Shown here piece after piece: positions 17,221 through 26,430 of a stretch of 64,000 nt of DNA. The stretch spans positions 248,001-312,000 of the forward strand of contig LOER01000016.1 of the NCBI GenBank assembly GCA_001515945.1. The letters run 5' to 3'. Position numbers and translations under genes: made by a program. Below the pieces are notes generated by a model. That model was not told the DNA's origin. It saw only the letters and a program-made list of their open reading frames with translations, and did not search any database. How positions within the stretch are numbered: position 1 is the stretch's first letter; the number at the start of each line of letters is the position of its first letter. Source of the DNA: Desulfitibacter sp. BRH_c19. Its GTDB lineage: Bacteria > Bacillota > DSM-16504 > Desulfitibacterales > Desulfitibacteraceae.

Positions 17221-18525
17221 TTAAACTAGCTTTTTAATTATCTCTTTAATTTCATAGATTACCTTTTCCTCATCGATTGTACTTACTTCTTTACTCTTCA
17301 TTATAACCTTACCATTTACTATTACAGTATCCACGTCTGATGCTCCTGCTGAATAGACTAAATGGGCATTTATATCATGTAAAGGTTGCAGATGTGGTCC
17401 ACTTAAATCTACTAAAATGATATCTGCTTTCATACCTGGCTTAATTTTTCCAATTTCTTGTCCTAATCCAAGTGCTTTTGCTCCATTACTAGTAGCCATA
17501 GAAAGTGCCTGATAGGAGGACATAACAGTAGGATCATAAGTATGTACTTTTTGAAGTAAAGATGCACTTCTCATTTCCTGAAACATATCTAGATTATTGT
17601 TGCTTGCAGCACCATCAGTTCCCAGTCCTACATTTACTCCCATTTCAATCATTTTGGTAATTGGGGCTATTCCACTTGCAAGCTTCATATTGCTTTCTGG
17701 ATTATGAGCAACACTAACTTTTTCTTGAAGCAATATCTTTAAATCATTATCGGTTAGATGTACACAATGGGCTGCTAAAACAGGATTAGCGGTAAACACT
17801 CCCGCCTGGTGGACCATTTCAACTGGAGTTTTATTATACTTCTCCTTAATTTGGTTGATTTCAGACAGAGTTTCTGCTATGTGAATATGTATGCCTACTC
17901 CAAGTTTTTTTGCCTCAGAGGATACTTCTTGTAAATATTCTGGTGAGCATGTGTAGGGGGCGTGTGGACCAAGCATAGTGGTAATCCTCTTATCTGCGCT
18001 ATTATGATAACTTTTAACAAGATTAATTCCTTCCTCAAGAGACTTATCTCCATTATTAAAGGATATTAATCCCCTACTTAGTGAAGCCCTTATACCCGTC
18101 TCCTTAACAACCTCTGCCACCTGCTCCATCATAAAGTACATATCGCTAAAACAAGTAGTACCACCTTTAATCATTTCTAGAACTGCTAGTTTAGTTCCCC
18201 AATAAACATACTCAGGTTTTAATTTAGCTTCTAGTGGCCAAATTCTATTTTCTAGCCATTCCATCAGAGGAAGGTCATCTGCATAACCTCTTAAAAGAGT
18301 CATAGCAGTATGAGTATGACAATTAACTAAGCCAGGCATTACTGCCATACCAGTAGCATCTATAATAGTACAATCATTACTGTCATATTCTTGATATCCA
18401 CTTTTTACAGAATCAATTTTCTCCCCAGCGATGATTATGTCTCCCTGAAAACAGATATCTCCGGGGTCCTGAATATTTTTTTCCATATTTAGAATATATC
18501 CATTTTTTATCACTATTTTTTTCAT
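17221..18525 (-). CDS. mtaD: 5-methylthioadenosine/S-adenosylhomocysteine deaminase
   Basis: An amidohydrolase of 434 residues that deaminates methylthioadenosine or S-adenosylhomocysteine to the inosine forms. Metal-binding NCHTHTAMTLLRGYADDLPL (about residues 70-90), HIHIAETLSEI, AHCVHL and GTDGAASNNNLDMF are all present. It overlaps mtnA by four bases (ATGA), and mtnP precedes both, so the three form an operon for handling the by-products of polyamine and methylation chemistry. Substrate choice cannot be read from the sequence. Confidence 0.9.
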   Translation of the reverse strand: MKKIVIKNGYILNMEKNIQDPGDICFQGDIIIAGEKIDSVKSGYQEYDSNDCTIIDATGMAVMPGLVNCHTHTAMTLLRGYADDLPLMEWLENRIWPLEAKLKPEYVYWGTKLAVLEMIKGGTTCFSDMYFMMEQVAEVVKETGIRASLSRGLISFNNGDKSLEEGINLVKSYHNSADKRITTMLGPHAPYTCSPEYLQEVSSEAKKLGVGIHIHIAETLSEINQIKEKYNKTPVEMVHQAGVFTANPVLAAHCVHLTDNDLKILLQEKVSVAHNPESNMKLASGIAPITKMIEMGVNVGLGTDGAASNNNLDMFQEMRSASLLQKVHTYDPTVMSSYQALSMATSNGAKALGLGQEIGKIKPGMKADIILVDLSGPHLQPLHDINAHLVYSAGASDVDTVIVNGKVIMKSKEVSTIDEEKVIYEIKEIIKKLV

Positions 18526-19568
18526 GCTTTCACCTCTTTTTCAAACAATCTCCCAATCTCTTCTTCATATGGTGCATTTACAATGCCTTTATCAGTAATA
18601 ATGCCTGTGATAAGTTCGTTAGGGGTTATGTCGAAGGCTGGATTATATACCAATATATCGTCAGGTATAATCTTATGTCCGTGAATATGCCTAATTTCAT
18701 TACAATTTCTTTCCTCCACTATTATTTGATTGCCGCTTGATATATTCAGATCCATTGTTGAATATGGTGCTGCAACATAGAAAGGAATTTTATGATATTT
18801 TGCAAGAATAGCTAGTGAGTAGGTGCCAATTTTATTAGCAACGTCTCCATTTTTAGCAATTCTGTCTGCTCCTACAATGACCATATCTATAGTTCCCTGT
18901 CCCATTAAATAACCAGCCATACTATCAGTTATAAGTGTTACAGGAATTTTGTCCTGATGAAGTTCCCACGCAGTTAATCTAGCTCCTTGCAACAACGGAC
19001 GTGTCTCACAAGCGAAAACTCTTTTTAAATTATCTTTTTCATGAGTAGCTCTAACTACCCCTAAGGCAGTACCATAACCTGCTGTAGCTAGAGCGCCAGC
19101 ATTGCAATGAGTTAAAATAACCGCATTTTTAGGAACAACTTCAACTCCAAACAAACCAATTCGTTTATTTAATGCTATATCCTCTTCATGAATATTCATA
19201 GCAGCTTCTTCGATTATTATAATAAGTTCCACAGTAGATTTGTCTTGATTGCTTTTTGCTGTCTGATACATCCTATCTACTGCCCAAAAAAGGTTAACTG
19301 CAGTAGGTCTGGAGCATTTAAGCAGTTCCCCTGCTCTGCATAAGTTCTTCATGAATACTTCTTTGGATTCACTTGCAAATTCCTTAGCTGCTAAAACCAT
19401 TCCATAGGCAGCTGCCACACCAATGGCAGGAGCACCTCTTACCACCATGTTTTTGATGGCCTCAACAACTTCAGGGTAGGTTTGGCATTTAACATATTCG
19501 ATTTTTAATGGTAATTTTGTTTGGTCTAATAACTTAAGAAATTTCTTCTCCCAAATAATACTATTCAC
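18522..19568 (-). CDS. mtnA: S-methyl-5-thioribose-1-phosphate isomerase
   Basis: Converts methylthioribose-1-phosphate to methylthioribulose-1-phosphate; it belongs to the eIF2B-related family. RGAPAIGVAAAYGMVLAA, THCNAGALATAGYGTALGV with the catalytic Cys, and VGADRIAKNGDVANKIGTYS with the catalytic Asp are intact. Its 348 residues are normal. It starts with GTG behind AGGAGGG, three bases after mtnP, and overlaps mtaD. No mtnB, mtnC, mtnX or aldolase gene lies in the window, so the later route of the product is unknown. Confidence 0.95.
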   Translation of the reverse strand: MNSIIWEKKFLKLLDQTKLPLKIEYVKCQTYPEVVEAIKNMVVRGAPAIGVAAAYGMVLAAKEFASESKEVFMKNLCRAGELLKCSRPTAVNLFWAVDRMYQTAKSNQDKSTVELIIIIEEAAMNIHEEDIALNKRIGLFGVEVVPKNAVILTHCNAGALATAGYGTALGVVRATHEKDNLKRVFACETRPLLQGARLTAWELHQDKIPVTLITDSMAGYLMGQGTIDMVIVGADRIAKNGDVANKIGTYSLAILAKYHKIPFYVAAPYSTMDLNISSGNQIIVEERNCNEIRHIHGHKIIPDDILVYNPAFDITPNELITGIITDKGIVNAPYEEEIGRLFEKEVKA

Positions 19569-19571
19569 ACA

Positions 19572-20390
19572 TTACCCTCCTAAGCTTTTCTGGCCTGAAA
19601 CTGCTACCTGACAAGAACAAGATCTATTTCCATCTGTAATTTCTATGGCTTTGGCAACTAATGTTTTAAGTTTTGCTGAAGCCATTTCCATTCTTTCTAA
19701 AACCTCTTGATGGGTCAAAGGATTATCAGATATACCCGCAGCATAGTTTGTGACAATTGCTACAGTAGCATAGCATAGTTCTGCTTCTCTGGCCAAAACA
19801 ACCTCTGGAACAGAAGTCATACCCACAAGATCAGCACCCAAATGCTTGTACATAAGAATTTCAGCTGGAGTTTCAAAGCGTGGCCCCTGTGTGCATACAT
19901 AAGTAGCCCCTTTACTTTGCAATGCTATTCCAACGGTTTGAGATGCTTCAAATAATCTTTCTCTAAGGGATAGGCAATATGGATGGGTCATATCTACATG
20001 AATAACTTCTTGTCCAACTTCATCAAAAAAGGTGATATCTCTTCCCCATGTAAAATCAATAAAATCACTTAAAAGCACCAAATCACCTGGCCTATACTTC
20101 CTATTAAGTGAACCAACTGCCGCAGTTGCAAATATTCTTTTTATTCCCAACATCTTTAAAGCCATAATATTTGCCCGGTAGTTAATTCTGTGGGGAGGAA
20201 TTGAATGATTTAGGCCATGCCTTTTTAACAAAGCTACCCTTGTTCCATTCAATTCTATAATTTCAACAATTACTTTTCCATATTTGGTGTCAACTTCAAC
20301 TTTTTCCTTCTGATTTGTATTTTCACCACCCGCCCGGGTAGTTGTAAATGCTCCAGTTCCTCCAATAATAGCAAAATCTACTTTTTTCAA
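19572..20390 (-). CDS. mtnP: S-methyl-5'-thioadenosine (or thioinosine) phosphorylase
   Basis: A purine-nucleoside phosphorylase of the MTAP family that splits methylthioadenosine into adenine and methylthioribose-1-phosphate. The TTG at 20390 (MKKVDFAIIGGTGAF, 272 residues) is preferred: GGAGG lies six bases upstream, and the ATG 24 bases earlier has none. LLKRHGLNHSIPPHRINYRAN, CTQGPRFETPAEI and GADLVGMTSVPEVVLARE are the phosphate- and substrate-site motifs. Next to a deaminase it may instead act on methylthioinosine, as one Pseudomonas homologue does. Confidence 0.88.
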   Translation of the reverse strand: MKKVDFAIIGGTGAFTTTRAGGENTNQKEKVEVDTKYGKVIVEIIELNGTRVALLKRHGLNHSIPPHRINYRANIMALKMLGIKRIFATAAVGSLNRKYRPGDLVLLSDFIDFTWGRDITFFDEVGQEVIHVDMTHPYCLSLRERLFEASQTVGIALQSKGATYVCTQGPRFETPAEILMYKHLGADLVGMTSVPEVVLAREAELCYATVAIVTNYAAGISDNPLTHQEVLERMEMASAKLKTLVAKAIEITDGNRSCSCQVAVSGQKSLGG

Positions 20391-20420
20391 ATTCCCCCTC
20401 CTTTCAAAAGGCATAAGTAG

Positions 20421-20659: not shown

Positions 20660-21577
20660 CTAATCACTAGCAAATAGTGCTTTTACAAAGTCATTTGGAT
20701 TAAATGGTTTTAAATCTTCAATCTTTTCCCCAACACCTATGTATTTAATGGGTAGCCCCAATTCCTCCTTAATACCAAATATTACTCCACCCTTTGCAGT
20801 ACCATCCAACTTAGTTAAAACAATTCCTGTCACGTCTACCACTTCTTTGAAATTTTTAGCTTGTGAAATCGCATTTTGGCCTGTTGTAGCATCAAGTACA
20901 AGTAAGACTTCATTTGGAGCATCCACTTTGGCTTTACTGATAACTTTTTTTACTTTTCCAATTTCATTCATCAAATTTATTTTGTTATGTAACCTACCTG
21001 CTGTATCAATTAAAACAACATCCGCTTTTCTTGATATAGCAGCTTGGACCGCGTCATAAGCAACTGCAGCAGAATCTGAACCTTCTTGATGCTTCACAAT
21101 ATCTGCATTAGCCCTCTCAGCCCATATACTAAGCTGTTCACTAGCAGCAGCCCTAAAAGTATCCCCAGCTGCAAGTATTACCTTTTTACCTTGTTCCTTA
21201 AAGTTATATGCTAATTTACCTATAGTTGTTGTTTTTCCCACACCATTTACTCCAACAACCATGATTACAGTTGGTTTTTGTTCTGAAAGGTTTATAGTTT
21301 TAATGTCATCTTCCAACAAAGCTACTAATTCTTCTTGTATTATTTCATTTACTCTATCCATATCAGATACTTTTTCATCATAAATTCTTTGCTTTAAGTT
21401 TTTTGCTAATTTCAGCGACGTGTTAACCCCAATATCTGCCTCAATTAAGATTTCCTCGAGTTTTTCAAAAAACTCATCATCAATTTTCTTATATCCTGTA
21501 ACCAATTCAGTAACCTTATCCACAAATCCCTGTTTTGTTTTTTGTAACCCGCCTTTAATTTTGTCAAACAATCCCAT
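20660..21577 (-). CDS. ftsY: signal recognition particle receptor FtsY
   Basis: The membrane-associated GTPase that receives SRP-ribosome complexes. The ATG at 21577 (MGLFDKIKGGLQKTKQGF, 305 residues) has GGAGG eight bases upstream and is preferred to the ATG five codons earlier. GVNGVGKTTTIGKLA (G1), DTAGRLHNKINLMNEI, and TKLDGTAKGGV are conserved. The acidic A domain is nearly absent, as in other short Firmicutes FtsY; membrane binding then relies on the N-terminal helix. It is the last gene of the fapR-smc-ftsY run. Confidence 0.97.
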   Translation of the reverse strand: MGLFDKIKGGLQKTKQGFVDKVTELVTGYKKIDDEFFEKLEEILIEADIGVNTSLKLAKNLKQRIYDEKVSDMDRVNEIIQEELVALLEDDIKTINLSEQKPTVIMVVGVNGVGKTTTIGKLAYNFKEQGKKVILAAGDTFRAAASEQLSIWAERANADIVKHQEGSDSAAVAYDAVQAAISRKADVVLIDTAGRLHNKINLMNEIGKVKKVISKAKVDAPNEVLLVLDATTGQNAISQAKNFKEVVDVTGIVLTKLDGTAKGGVIFGIKEELGLPIKYIGVGEKIEDLKPFNPNDFVKALFASD

Positions 21578-21648
21578 GCTATTTTCCTCCAATATGAAAA
21601 TAAGGCTAAGGCTTAACCTTAACCTCAGATATATTCTATCATGTTTTC

Positions 21649-22791
21649 CTAATTAAGCTCAATAGGTTTACAAAGGTCAGTAAATTCTTGCGCTATAGCA
21701 AACTTTCTGTTGCGAATTTGAGTTTCTTCTTCTGTTGTCTCAGCTCCAAAAAATTTGCTGTTTAAAACTTCATCTTCATCCGTAAGCTCAAATATTCTAT
21801 CTGCCTTCTCAATTACTGTAGCTCCCCTAATCTTACCATCTTTATCATGACCAATTGCGATAATTGGCCTTCCCCACGTACCAGGACCAGCATTAGCATC
21901 TCCAATATGCATGACTCCAGTACCTCCAGGATGAGTATGGATGATAATTGCATTGTCAGGTATTATGCCACTATAGATTACTTTAAGAGATTTACCAGAG
22001 ATGTCTGTAAAACTTGATGCAAGCAATCTTGATGGGACATAACCAATTCCACCTGCTACTAATTTACCTTGCCCAGTAACATGACCCTTTTCATCAATAA
22101 CTCCTATAGCTGCAACCTCTCTGCCCTGTCCCACTTTCATAGATTCATCCACTAGGGACTTCGCTAAACTTTTATCAATAGATCTAACAGCCAATCTTGG
22201 TAGCTTCCATTTTTTCCCATTACCTTTGTGGCTATCCACATTCTTCAAGTCAAATTTAACCTGAGGTAACTCCTCAGAAACCTCTAAGTATTTTAAGCTT
22301 AACTCATGATTTGTCTTTAGCACTTCTTTTTCTTCATCCATGGTATTGCTCGCTAGAGTTTCTATATTCATTTCTTCCGATTTTGTAGATAGATCGAAAT
22401 ACTCTGGTTTGGGGTAAACAACACTTATTCCTGCAGCTCCTTCATTTTTAACTCCAATTGATATTATAGGACAGTTAAAAAAATCAACACCTGATACATC
22501 AGTAGCTAAACCTGTCTTGCCTGGTCTTGTAACCACAAATACTGTATTGTCTGGAAGCAAATTTAAGCCTTCAATTAAAGATTTGTCCTTCATGGTACTG
22601 ATTTTATTAAGCAATATTCTTAAGGGTAATCCACTTAGACCTCCACTAACAATTTCGGTGCACTCATCAATAATCCCATCTTCGTTAACAAAACCAAAGC
22701 ATCCAGCATTTCTTCCTTGACTAAGTTGCATTGTTCTATCTACCAACATTTTTACTAATTGCTCTGAAATACCACTAATTTTTTGATTCAT
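21649..22791 (-). CDS. unrecognised two-repeat protein with an HxHP...D motif
   Basis: I do not recognise this 380-residue protein. It has two homologous halves (about 10-125 and 205-330) joined by a polar linker. Both begin LVD..M...QGR and carry a GG-rich strand, then PDN and a loop. The second half has HTHPGGTGVMHIGD (His285, His287, Asp298), with spacing as in JAMM/MPN metalloproteases (HxHx7Sx2D) except that His replaces Ser. In the first half the same positions are V87, R89 and S100, so that copy lacks the ligands. No signal peptide or membrane helix. It sits between smc and ftsY, with GGGAG upstream of its ATG. A metal-dependent hydrolase is possible but unproven. Confidence 0.6.
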   Translation of the reverse strand: MNQKISGISEQLVKMLVDRTMQLSQGRNAGCFGFVNEDGIIDECTEIVSGGLSGLPLRILLNKISTMKDKSLIEGLNLLPDNTVFVVTRPGKTGLATDVSGVDFFNCPIISIGVKNEGAAGISVVYPKPEYFDLSTKSEEMNIETLASNTMDEEKEVLKTNHELSLKYLEVSEELPQVKFDLKNVDSHKGNGKKWKLPRLAVRSIDKSLAKSLVDESMKVGQGREVAAIGVIDEKGHVTGQGKLVAGGIGYVPSRLLASSFTDISGKSLKVIYSGIIPDNAIIIHTHPGGTGVMHIGDANAGPGTWGRPIIAIGHDKDGKIRGATVIEKADRIFELTDEDEVLNSKFFGAETTEEETQIRNRKFAIAQEFTDLCKPIELN

Positions 22792-22875
22792 AATATCACT
22801 CCCGAAGTAACATTTTTAGTCTATTCTTGGTTTAATTTAGTTTTCCTCGGAAACCAATGTATATTCTTTAAAATG

Positions 22876-25800
22876 TTAAACAACTGCCAGGTTATCAGAT
22901 AGTTTTACTGAAACTACTTTGGAAACACCAGGTTCTTCCGTAGTTATTCCATACAAATTATCCGCTACCAGCATTGTGTTTTGCCTGTGGGAAACTACTA
23001 AAAATTGTGTACTGTTTGATAATTCACGTAAAAACTTTGAAAACCTTTGTTCATTAGCTTCATCTAGTGAAGATTCTATTTCATCTAATACACAAAATGG
23101 ACTTGGTTTAATTTTTAAAAAAGCAAAAAGTAAGGCAATTGCTGTTAAAGCTTTTTCGCCCCCAGATAATAAACTTATGTTTTGTAGCTTTTTCCCTGGT
23201 GGTTGCGCTTCAATATCAACCCCAGTATTTAACAAATCTTCTTCGTTTGTAACGTATATACTGGCACTTCCTCCGCCAAACAAGTATTTAAAAATAGATG
23301 AAAACTCATGACTTACCTTCGCAAAGGTTTGACTGAACCTTTCCTCGATTATGCTATCTATTTCTTTAATTACTTTTTCCAAGGATTGTTTGGCCCTTAA
23401 AAGATCTGCTTTCTGGTCTTGAAGAAATAATGTTCTTTCACTCAGTTTTTCATAATGCTCAATTGCGCCCGTATTAACCTGCCCCAGAGCGGATAATTCT
23501 TCCTTGAGCCTTTCAATTTCAGGTTTGAATTGTTTTATCTCAACTTCAACAGAAACAAAATCCTCTCCGAATTTTTCATCAATCTTAGAAGCAATTGTTT
23601 CTAAATTTGTTTCTATTCTTGTCCTTTCTAACTCTAATTGATGCTGTTTCTTGGTTAATTCTTGATAGATATTATTAATTTTTGAATGTAGTTTTTCATG
23701 TTTGTTAAAAGTGTTTAAGATAAACTCTTTGCTTTCTATAAGCTGATTCTTCATATTATCTACTTTTTCTTTTTCTAAAAGAATCTTAGTAATCTTTACA
23801 TTGTAATGCTTAATAGAATTTTCTATGGTTTGTATTTGTTCTGTGTTAGTAAGTAGTTTCTTTTGATTAATATCTATCTTTTCTTTATAGTTGGATATTC
23901 TAGCAGTAAAATCCTCTACCTTTTCTTCCAACTGGTTGCGCTTTTGATCCCAAACACTCTTCTCAATTTGTTCTTGATGTTGTAAATTTACAAGTTTATT
24001 AATCTGATCTCGTATACTTCTACTTATTTGTTTTTTATTTGTTACTTCAAGGGTTACATCTGAGATTTGCTTTTCAATATCTAAAACTTTTTTTTCAGCT
24101 TTTTTTATCATTTCATCATTATCTATTTTGCTAGATTTAATTACATTAATTTCACTTTTAAAAATACTAATTTCGTCCTTAGTTATTTCTATTTTTTCTT
24201 TAATACTACTAAGAGTATTGTTCTTTTGTAATAATACATTTTTTAAGTCAGTTGATATTTCTATAAGATCTTTGGCTTTAAGCGCAAGCTTTTCTTCTAA
24301 ACCTCTTAATCTATTGGATTCATCTTGCTTAATCTTTAAAGAGTTTTCTAGTGGCGCTATTGTTTTTATAAGGCTTGCAATTTCATTCTTTCTGGATAAT
24401 AAGTTGTTTGTAGAAGTTTTAATAAAGCCTCCAGTAATAGAACCTCCAGGCATAATTACTTGACCATCTAAAGATACTATTTTTACTGAGTAATTGAATT
24501 CCTTAGCAAAATCTAGTCCTATGTTTAGGTTTTCTACAATTAATACACGGCCTAAGAGATATTTAATAACAGCACTATATCTATTGTCACATTTAATTAA
24601 GTCAGACCCTAAACCTATTAGTCCTGGAGAATTCCTATGCTTCTGTGGAATACTAAAGGTTTTCGTCTGAATCGTATTTAAGGGTAGAAAAGTCACCTTA
24701 CCTGATTTATTTGCTTTCAAAAAACTTATAGCTTGCTCAGCTTCCTTTTGTGAAATGGATATAAGATTCTGCAGTTGGGATCCTATTGCCGTTTCTATTG
24801 GAACAACAAGTTCAGGCGGTACAACTATCAGCTCTGCCACACTTCCTACTATGCCATCCCAATTACCTGGGTTGTTTTTCTTTGCAAGTAATATAGCCTT
24901 AACCCCAGGGAAATAGCCTTCCATATCCTCTTCTAAGTCCTTTAAAAAATTAAGTCTGGAGTTTGTTCTATACAAATCTTTTTGTGCAGAATCTATCTCC
25001 ATATTAACTTTTGCCTTTTCAATTTGAATTTCATCGGCTTTCTTTTTATTGGCTTGTACAGCTTCTAATGATTTGTCATGCTCGGTTTGTGAATCTTTTA
25101 ATTCAATTACGGTTTTTTGTTGTTCGTGGCTTAATCCTTTAAGTTTAGTCACCTTATCCTCTAATTGTCCTTCAATCTTCTCACTTTGTTTTTGGAGGAA
25201 AGAAATCTTTGTTTCAAATTTAGCAATATCATTTTTATACTGCACTAACATAGATTGATAATCCACTAGAAGGTTATTAGCTTCTGTGATTTGCCCTTCA
25301 TTATGCCCTAAATTATTTTCATAATCGCTTATTTCATTACTAATAACACTCACTTTTTCTTCTAGCTTTTTAAGCTTACTATCCACATTTTTGATGTCTT
25401 CATATAATACTTTCACTTTCGATGTCCAATTATTAACTTCGGAACTATGGACGCCTTTATCTGCCTTTAAAACCTCAATTTCTCTCATTAATCCCTTCAC
25501 TTGTTCTTTTAAAACCTTTTCTTCACCTAAGTATCTTTCCAATTCAGAATTCATTTCACCTATGAGATTAGCAAAGGTTGAAATTTTATCTTTACATTTA
25601 TCAAGAATAAACTTTTCATCAAATATGTATTTATCCAATTCATTTAAGAACCTGCTATAAGTAATAACCTGCTTGTTATTTTGATAATATTGTGCTGTTA
25701 AGGTACTCAGTCTTCTTTGTAACTTTTCTCTTTCAAAATTAAAAAATTGAAACTCTATATTTTCCAGCAATTTAATTTTACTTAAATACTCCTTGGCTTT

Positions 25801-26430
25801 ATCTGATTCAGTTTTTAATGATGGTAATTGTTCCTCAATTTCATAAACAATGTCATCAATCCTTAGTAAACTTTGTTCTGTTACGGCAACCTTCTGTTCA
25901 GCTTCTTTTTTTCTGTATTTATATTTGGTGATACCTGCCACCTCTTCTAAAAGAGGCCTTCGTTCTTCTGGGCTCGAGTTAATTATGTCATCAACCTTTC
26001 CCTGCCCAATAATTGCAAATGCATTTTTTCCAAGTCCAGTATCCATAAAAAGAGCCTGTACATCTTTTAAACGACATGAGTTTTTGTTTATTAAGAATTG
26101 ACTTTCGCCATCTCGGAAAACCTTTCGTGTTACAGTTATTTCGTTATATTCCATTGGGTATATCCCAGAAGAGTTATCCAGAACTATTGTAACCTCGGCC
26201 ATCCCCATGGGTCTTTTATTTTTTGTCCCGGAAAATATTATATCCTCAAGCCTGCTACCACGTAGTGATTTGACGCTTGTTTCACCAAGCACCCATCTTA
26301 ATGCGTCCACAACATTACTTTTACCGCTCCCATTCGGACCTACAATAACTGTAATTCCTCTATCAAGTTTTATGGAAACTTTATTTACAAATGACTTAAA
26401 ACCATGCAATTCTACTCGTTGAAGATACAA
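22876..26430 (-). CDS. smc: chromosome segregation protein SMC
   Basis: The condensin ATPase that compacts and separates chromosomes together with ScpA and ScpB. GPNGSGKSNVVDALRWVLGE (Walker A, about residues 32-51) is at the N-terminus. A long coiled coil is broken by the hinge (about 510-680, GYFPGVKAIL onward). The C-terminal head holds LSGGEKALTAIALLFA and the Walker B CVLDEIESSLDEAN. The 1184 residues are normal. It starts with TTG behind GGGGAG. It follows rnc and a radical SAM gene; scpAB are not in the window. Confidence 0.98.
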   Translation of the reverse strand: MYLQRVELHGFKSFVNKVSIKLDRGITVIVGPNGSGKSNVVDALRWVLGETSVKSLRGSRLEDIIFSGTKNKRPMGMAEVTIVLDNSSGIYPMEYNEITVTRKVFRDGESQFLINKNSCRLKDVQALFMDTGLGKNAFAIIGQGKVDDIINSSPEERRPLLEEVAGITKYKYRKKEAEQKVAVTEQSLLRIDDIVYEIEEQLPSLKTESDKAKEYLSKIKLLENIEFQFFNFEREKLQRRLSTLTAQYYQNNKQVITYSRFLNELDKYIFDEKFILDKCKDKISTFANLIGEMNSELERYLGEEKVLKEQVKGLMREIEVLKADKGVHSSEVNNWTSKVKVLYEDIKNVDSKLKKLEEKVSVISNEISDYENNLGHNEGQITEANNLLVDYQSMLVQYKNDIAKFETKISFLQKQSEKIEGQLEDKVTKLKGLSHEQQKTVIELKDSQTEHDKSLEAVQANKKKADEIQIEKAKVNMEIDSAQKDLYRTNSRLNFLKDLEEDMEGYFPGVKAILLAKKNNPGNWDGIVGSVAELIVVPPELVVPIETAIGSQLQNLISISQKEAEQAISFLKANKSGKVTFLPLNTIQTKTFSIPQKHRNSPGLIGLGSDLIKCDNRYSAVIKYLLGRVLIVENLNIGLDFAKEFNYSVKIVSLDGQVIMPGGSITGGFIKTSTNNLLSRKNEIASLIKTIAPLENSLKIKQDESNRLRGLEEKLALKAKDLIEISTDLKNVLLQKNNTLSSIKEKIEITKDEISIFKSEINVIKSSKIDNDEMIKKAEKKVLDIEKQISDVTLEVTNKKQISRSIRDQINKLVNLQHQEQIEKSVWDQKRNQLEEKVEDFTARISNYKEKIDINQKKLLTNTEQIQTIENSIKHYNVKITKILLEKEKVDNMKNQLIESKEFILNTFNKHEKLHSKINNIYQELTKKQHQLELERTRIETNLETIASKIDEKFGEDFVSVEVEIKQFKPEIERLKEELSALGQVNTGAIEHYEKLSERTLFLQDQKADLLRAKQSLEKVIKEIDSIIEERFSQTFAKVSHEFSSIFKYLFGGGSASIYVTNEEDLLNTGVDIEAQPPGKKLQNISLLSGGEKALTAIALLFAFLKIKPSPFCVLDEIESSLDEANEQRFSKFLRELSNSTQFLVVSHRQNTMLVADNLYGITTEEPGVSKVVSVKLSDNLAVV

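Follow-up and report, generated by a model that had tools for sequence, protein, structure and literature searches.

Introduction

As a rule, JAMM enzymes depend on a serine, and those of eukaryotes are often paired with a dead homologue on a separate chain. In these MPN+/MPN- pairs (Rpn11-Rpn8, CSN5-CSN6 and BRCC36-Abraxas/KIAA0157) one metal site is kept, that of the homologue is lost, and helices follow each domain. Rpn8, CSN6 and Abraxas are thought to act in trans for Rpn11, CSN5 and BRCC36, as scaffolds or by binding substrate.

The published JAMM motif is EXnHS/THX7SXXD, in which His and Asp serve as zinc ligands and Glu holds the water; a proposed role of the Ser is to stabilise the tetrahedral intermediate (PMC300881). 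In AfJAMM, the hydroxyl of this Ser occupies the position of a nitrogen of thermolysin His231, and replacement of the Ser by Ala abolished the activity of CSN5 (PMC300881). The MPN- domain of CSN6 is dispensable for activity (PMC3431379). DRJAMM (PMC8832034) and HvJAMM1 (PMC4443979) are reported to cleave MoaD/ThiS-type conjugates. Here, we describe a protein encoded in a 64,000-nucleotide stretch of the Desulfitibacter sp. BRH_c19 genome (the window), in which an MPN+ and an MPN- domain appear to be fused in a single chain.

A duplicated protein encoded between smc and ftsY

The gene occupies exactly positions 21649-22791 of the minus strand, starting with ATG, ending with a stop codon at 21649-21651 and encoding 380 residues. 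A ribosome-binding site of the GGGAG type precedes the ATG, the Shine-Dalgarno-like CGGGAGTG at 22797-22804 (minus strand). The initial annotation had correctly placed the gene between smc (22876-26430) and ftsY (20660-21577), which encodes the SRP receptor GTPase; all three lie on the minus strand, with gaps of 84 bp between smc and the gene and 71 bp between the gene and ftsY. Since no membrane-type hydrophobic stretch was found in the protein (maximum 19-residue mean 1.13), the product is most likely soluble and cytosolic.

That annotation had also proposed an ancient tandem duplication, and our results agree. The two halves are mutually homologous by BLASTP (31% identity over 132 residues, E 2e-19), and comparison of the N-half and C-half family profiles with hhalign gave a probability of 99.8% (E 1.8e-28). 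Moreover, the C-half profile recovers the N-half in the carrier genomes with E-values of 1e-18 to 1e-26, so the duplication is not a chance resemblance. By its homology to the C-half, the N-half (residues 1-169; 22285-22791, minus strand) is assigned as a pseudo-MPN (MPN-) domain, followed by a helical hairpin at residues 129-169. The C-half (residues 205-380; 21652-22179, minus strand), assigned as an MPN+ (JAMM) domain from Foldseek of this half alone, is followed by a hairpin at residues 331-372; both hairpins come from the secondary structure. The linker between them (residues 170-204; 22180-22284, minus strand) is variable, with a conservation of 0.45 versus 0.67 and 0.75 for the halves and a dN of 0.23.

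The C-half carries a JAMM motif with His in place of Ser

H285, H287 and D298 are located as initially described, in the C-half only, with V87, R89 and S100 opposite them in the first copy. In the orthologue alignment these putative metal ligands, in HxHx10D spacing, are present in 41/41 rows and absent from no orthologue. The motif H285-T-H287-P-G-G-T-G-V-M-H295-I-G-D298 (21898-21939, minus strand) matches once in the window, with 0 matches expected from 100 shuffles. Two features had been overlooked: the fourth JAMM residue, E225 (22117-22119, minus strand), and the invariance of H295, at the position of the JAMM Ser. E225, the predicted general acid-base glutamate, lies upstream of the motif, where the first core strand begins (predicted strand 224-232), aligns with the REVA/REIA of the HflX N-domain (see below) and is conserved in all 41 rows. 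Equally invariant are T286, P288, G289, G292, M294, H295 and G297. The layout, E-x59-H-T-H-x7-H-x2-D, therefore contains every JAMM element except the Ser; the catalytic Ser of Hx7SxxD is absent from the family, and His295 takes its place in 41/41 rows.

An invariant His would be a chemically sensible substitute, because the AfJAMM Ser hydroxyl overlies a nitrogen of thermolysin His231. Since changing the Ser to Ala kills CSN5, the change to His could also mean an altered or lost activity. Note that the C-half also contains, past the active-site loop, a further conserved His-Asp pair, H315-D316 (21844-21849; IGHD, at least 90% of rows), near which W306 and R308 are invariant.

The N-half is degenerate at the metal site and otherwise constrained

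N28, V87, R89, T97 and S100 of the N-half face E225, H285, H287, H295 and D298 of the C-half, and the HxHP metal motif is replaced by an RPGKTG loop (residues 89-94; 22510-22527, minus strand). The initial annotation had called this copy degenerate, which holds for the lost metal ligands and not for the domain as a whole, where we see no decay. Within the loop, P90 (40/41), G91 (41/41), K92 (39/41), T93 (40/41) and G94 (41/41) are conserved, R89 less so; QGR, GG, R58 and K115 are likewise kept in at least 90% of rows. Moreover, the dN of the N-half (0.084) is as low as that of the C-half (0.078), with synonymous sites near saturation. Because of this conservation and this low dN, we regard the N-half as a constrained pseudo-domain. 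Its sequence shows the MPN- pattern of Rpn8, CSN6 and Abraxas; in contrast to the eukaryotic pairs, one bacterial polypeptide contains both halves. Given that the MPN- domain of CSN6 is dispensable, a catalytic role for the N-half is not assured.

Structural models support a remote MPN-type fold

AlphaFold models were obtained for the full-length protein (pLDDT 86.9, pTM 0.85) and for the C-half (pLDDT 83.6, pTM 0.79). Among the Foldseek matches listed for the full-length model, JAMM/MPN structures appeared almost exclusively, the best PDB match being PfJAMM1 (5lda; E 6.4e-4, prob 1.00) and others being Rpn11/Rpn8, CSN5, BRCC36 and the bacterial JAB-like structure 2kcq. The C-half alone matched BRCC36, PfJAMM1, Rpn11, CSN5, BubCD and a bacterial Ubl-deubiquitinase complex, while the top matches in a viral structure library were JAMM/RadC-like proteins. 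The predicted topology is also that of JAMM proteins: a helix, the Glu starting strand 1, the HxH ending a later strand and the Asp starting a short helix. Thus the MPN fold, initially a guess, is supported by the models of both the full-length protein and the C-half, and an unrelated fold was not obtained. The matches are remote, with TM-scores mostly of 0.3-0.48 and rmsd mostly of at least 6 Å, so the protein is a divergent JAMM/MPN member. The least confident part of the model is the H295-D298 loop and beyond (block pLDDT 60 and 66; residues 299-304 below 50). The full-length model places the MPN+ and MPN- domains in one chain, and its pTM suggests a fixed arrangement of the two halves.

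By its predicted fold and four of the five signature residues, then, the protein can be placed in the JAMM/MPN superfamily. With JAMM/MPN+ metalloproteases such as AfJAMM, PfJAMM1, Rpn11, CSN5 and BRCC36 it shares the fold found by Foldseek and the spacing of the E, H[S/T]H and D. It differs from them in its invariant His for Ser, in having two domains in one chain, in the absence of Ubl or E1 linkage and in its very low sequence identity.

A sequence bridge to HflX and RadC

Searches of Pfam, NCBIfam, PHROGs and PDB sequences with the protein gave no match, and a Pfam scan of 14 diverse family members gave none either, JAB and RadC models included. Neither the protein nor these members reached the curated cut-offs of PF14464 (Prok-JAB), PF04002 (RadC) or any Pfam JAB model. 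From these searches, the family appears to be uncatalogued. RadC and Prok-JAB share the JAMM motif HxHP...PSxxD with it; in contrast to our protein, they have the Ser. The profile-profile comparison suggested by the initial annotation yielded no significant direct match (hhalign, RadC 22%, Prok-JAB 2%), in a test of low power, as the control of Prok-JAB against RadC reached only 60%. With this direct score, and with the motif HNHPSGxPxPSxxD as the RadC signature, RadC membership was not found. Since the Ser and the curated JAB and RadC matches are all missing, we consider the protein a variant, and not a member of Prok-JAB, RadC or the deubiquitinase families.

The same approach did reveal an indirect link. 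The C-half profile weakly matches the first 200 residues of the long-form HflX GTPase (E 0.01-0.09); profile against profile, C-half and HflX N-domain reached 95.4% (E 2e-8), and HflX N-domain and RadC 94.8% (E 5e-8). Column shuffles reached at most 5%. Block shuffles, which leave six-column pieces intact, scored 36.9 on average and 46.3 at most versus 52.3 for the real comparison (0/60 as high), so much of the score comes from the HTHPxG motif, with a smaller yet genuine contribution from the remaining columns. These profiles point to a bridge from the C-half through the HflX N-domain to RadC.

By sequence, no relative stands closer to the C-half than the HflX N-domain, with (G)REVA ... HTHPxGSG ... 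D ... IxAIG in common. In contrast to our protein, it occurs as a single copy, has the canonical Ser (LSxxD) and precedes a ribosome-binding GTPase; it is absent from the genome of the window, in which RadC is a separate gene. In the long-form HflX of Bacillota, this undescribed N-terminal domain of approximately 150-200 residues carries a canonical JAMM motif, REI/VAVY...HTHPxGSGxLSxxD in 31 aligned copies, and was seen in 38/200 genomes of the phylum (loci L143, L146 and L149-L178, e.g. G026:C1:135653-136225). No Pfam model matches it. It would represent a JAMM domain fused to a ribosome-splitting factor. Co-occurrence of our family with this domain gave a raw Fisher p of 6e-6, but the tree holds only one independent pair that is well supported, and the association is therefore not supported beyond phylogeny.

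Distribution and inheritance

Relatives of the protein were found in 40/399 genomes of the phylum, each with a single full-length copy. A further match (E 0.005), antisense to tsaD, was dropped as a chance match. Weak profile matches to a chemoreceptor, an ABC transporter and two apparently non-genic frames were also discarded after inspection. A search of 300 genomes of the phylum with the C-half profile found no single-half relatives. No relative of any kind was found in plasmids and phages by tblastn, nor in viral contigs by profile search; ten motif matches in viral contigs were rejected as implausible high-GC frames.

Distances between family members and between the FtsY proteins are correlated (Mantel r 0.83; 0/2000 permutations as high), which indicates that the gene tracks its host. 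Its presence on the FtsY tree is clustered yet patchy (9 changes versus 22.6 expected), a pattern that could reflect loss or transfer of the block. Spo0A is present in 53/61 relatives and is therefore uninformative on a link to sporulation.

ftsY lies directly downstream of the gene in all 41 genomes and smc directly upstream in 38/41. In the remaining three, unrelated genes interrupt the link to smc and the link to ftsY is kept: the upstream position is taken by a hydrogenase cluster, encoded on the opposite strand, in Candidatus Formimonas (L005; 1-3969), and by a LysR-type regulator in one further genus (L018/L019; L018 1-1444). In genomes without the gene, smc mostly adjoins ftsY directly. 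The genes around the family are smc, ftsY, mtnP, mtnA, ylxM and ffh, and no E1, Ubl, E2 or cofactor genes were found in the neighbourhoods examined. A literature search for JAMM together with smc and ftsY found no paper.

Proposed function and alternatives

The tandem duplication, the MPN-type predicted fold and the invariance of E225, H285, H287 and D298 in the C-half only are strongly supported. On this basis, we propose that the protein is probably a cytosolic zinc-dependent JAMM/MPN hydrolase whose catalytically dead partner domain is fused to it in cis. H285, H287 and D298 would hold one Zn2+, E225 would activate the zinc-bound water, and H295 may stabilise the oxyanion like the thermolysin histidine. 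The N-half, with its RPGKTG loop, would scaffold the C-half or bind the substrate, and the bond cleaved would likely be a peptide, isopeptide or related amide bond. If so, the protein would offer a compact model for the role of a dead JAMM partner, and would show whether a thermolysin-like His is tolerated in JAMM catalysis.

The most likely setting, albeit a weakly supported one, is protein targeting or translation, because ftsY never leaves the gene even where smc has left, and because the nearest relative of the C-half is an HflX domain. Adjacency of genes may simply be inherited. Since the co-occurrence with the HflX domain vanishes once phylogeny is considered, we give a targeting role low weight. 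The boldest version, a new family of bacterial JAMM enzymes with an intramolecular MPN+/MPN- pair and a thermolysin-like His for Ser, acting on a component of signal recognition or protein targeting, is a long shot. Were it true, this family and the HflX-fused domain would together suggest that Bacillota have a JAMM peptidase system associated with the ribosome.

The bridge from the C-half leads to HflX and RadC rather than to deubiquitinase families, and the usual neighbour Smc is a DNA protein. Together with the RadC encoded separately in the genome, this would suit a protein that binds metal and acts, in the manner of RadC, on nucleic acid or a small metabolite, or a structural zinc protein, in either case not a peptidase. 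We consider this unlikely: Foldseek puts peptidase-type JAMMs first, E225 and the HTH spacing form a catalytic set, and it is the link to smc that is lost in some genomes. That the JAMM Ser is missing, and that most of the phylum lacks the family, which is therefore not essential in general, would also fit a non-enzymatic scaffold, in which both halves are structural and the His/Asp cluster steadies a loop or binds a regulatory metal. This is rather more doubtful, since the four catalytic-site residues and H295 are invariant in 41/41 rows and all lost in the duplicate half, the pattern of an active site.

A role in deconjugating or maturing a sulfur carrier of the ubiquitin-like ThiS/MoaD type, like that of the archaeal JAMM1 desampylases or Deinococcus DRJAMM, is suggested by the closest solved structure listed, PfJAMM1 bound to SAMP2, by five ThiS/MoaD-family proteins encoded in the genome of the window and by the cleavage of MoaD-MoaE reported for DRJAMM (PMC8832034). 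The family shows no linkage to E1, Ubl or cofactor genes, its neighbours being smc, ftsY and mtnP/mtnA, and ThiS/MoaD proteins occur in 11/14 control genomes and are therefore not diagnostic; we regard this role as a genuine alternative, though an improbable one. Finally, TM-scores below 0.5 and non-significant direct profile matches might mean that the MPN match is an artefact, the true fold being an unrelated alpha/beta one in which HxHx7HxxD occurs by chance. We give this very little credence, as both models match almost only JAMM/MPN structures, E225, the HTH spacing and the order of secondary structures all fit JAMM, and the bridge through HflX to RadC exceeds the shuffled controls. Whichever its reaction, an uncatalogued gene locked beside ftsY provides, for a large group of Bacillota, a lead on protein targeting that can be tested.

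Other features of the region

Between the gene and ftsY, positions 21601-21627 (minus strand) form a 12-bp hairpin with a short T-rich run after it, a possible candidate attenuator; the number of such hairpin-type sites in the surrounding region is not above chance. Between ftsY and ylxM-ffh, positions 17221-20414 encode mtnP, mtnA and an amidohydrolase resembling MTA/SAH deaminases. Methionine-salvage genes are inserted in the SRP cluster in this way in many relatives, whether or not these carry the duplicated gene.
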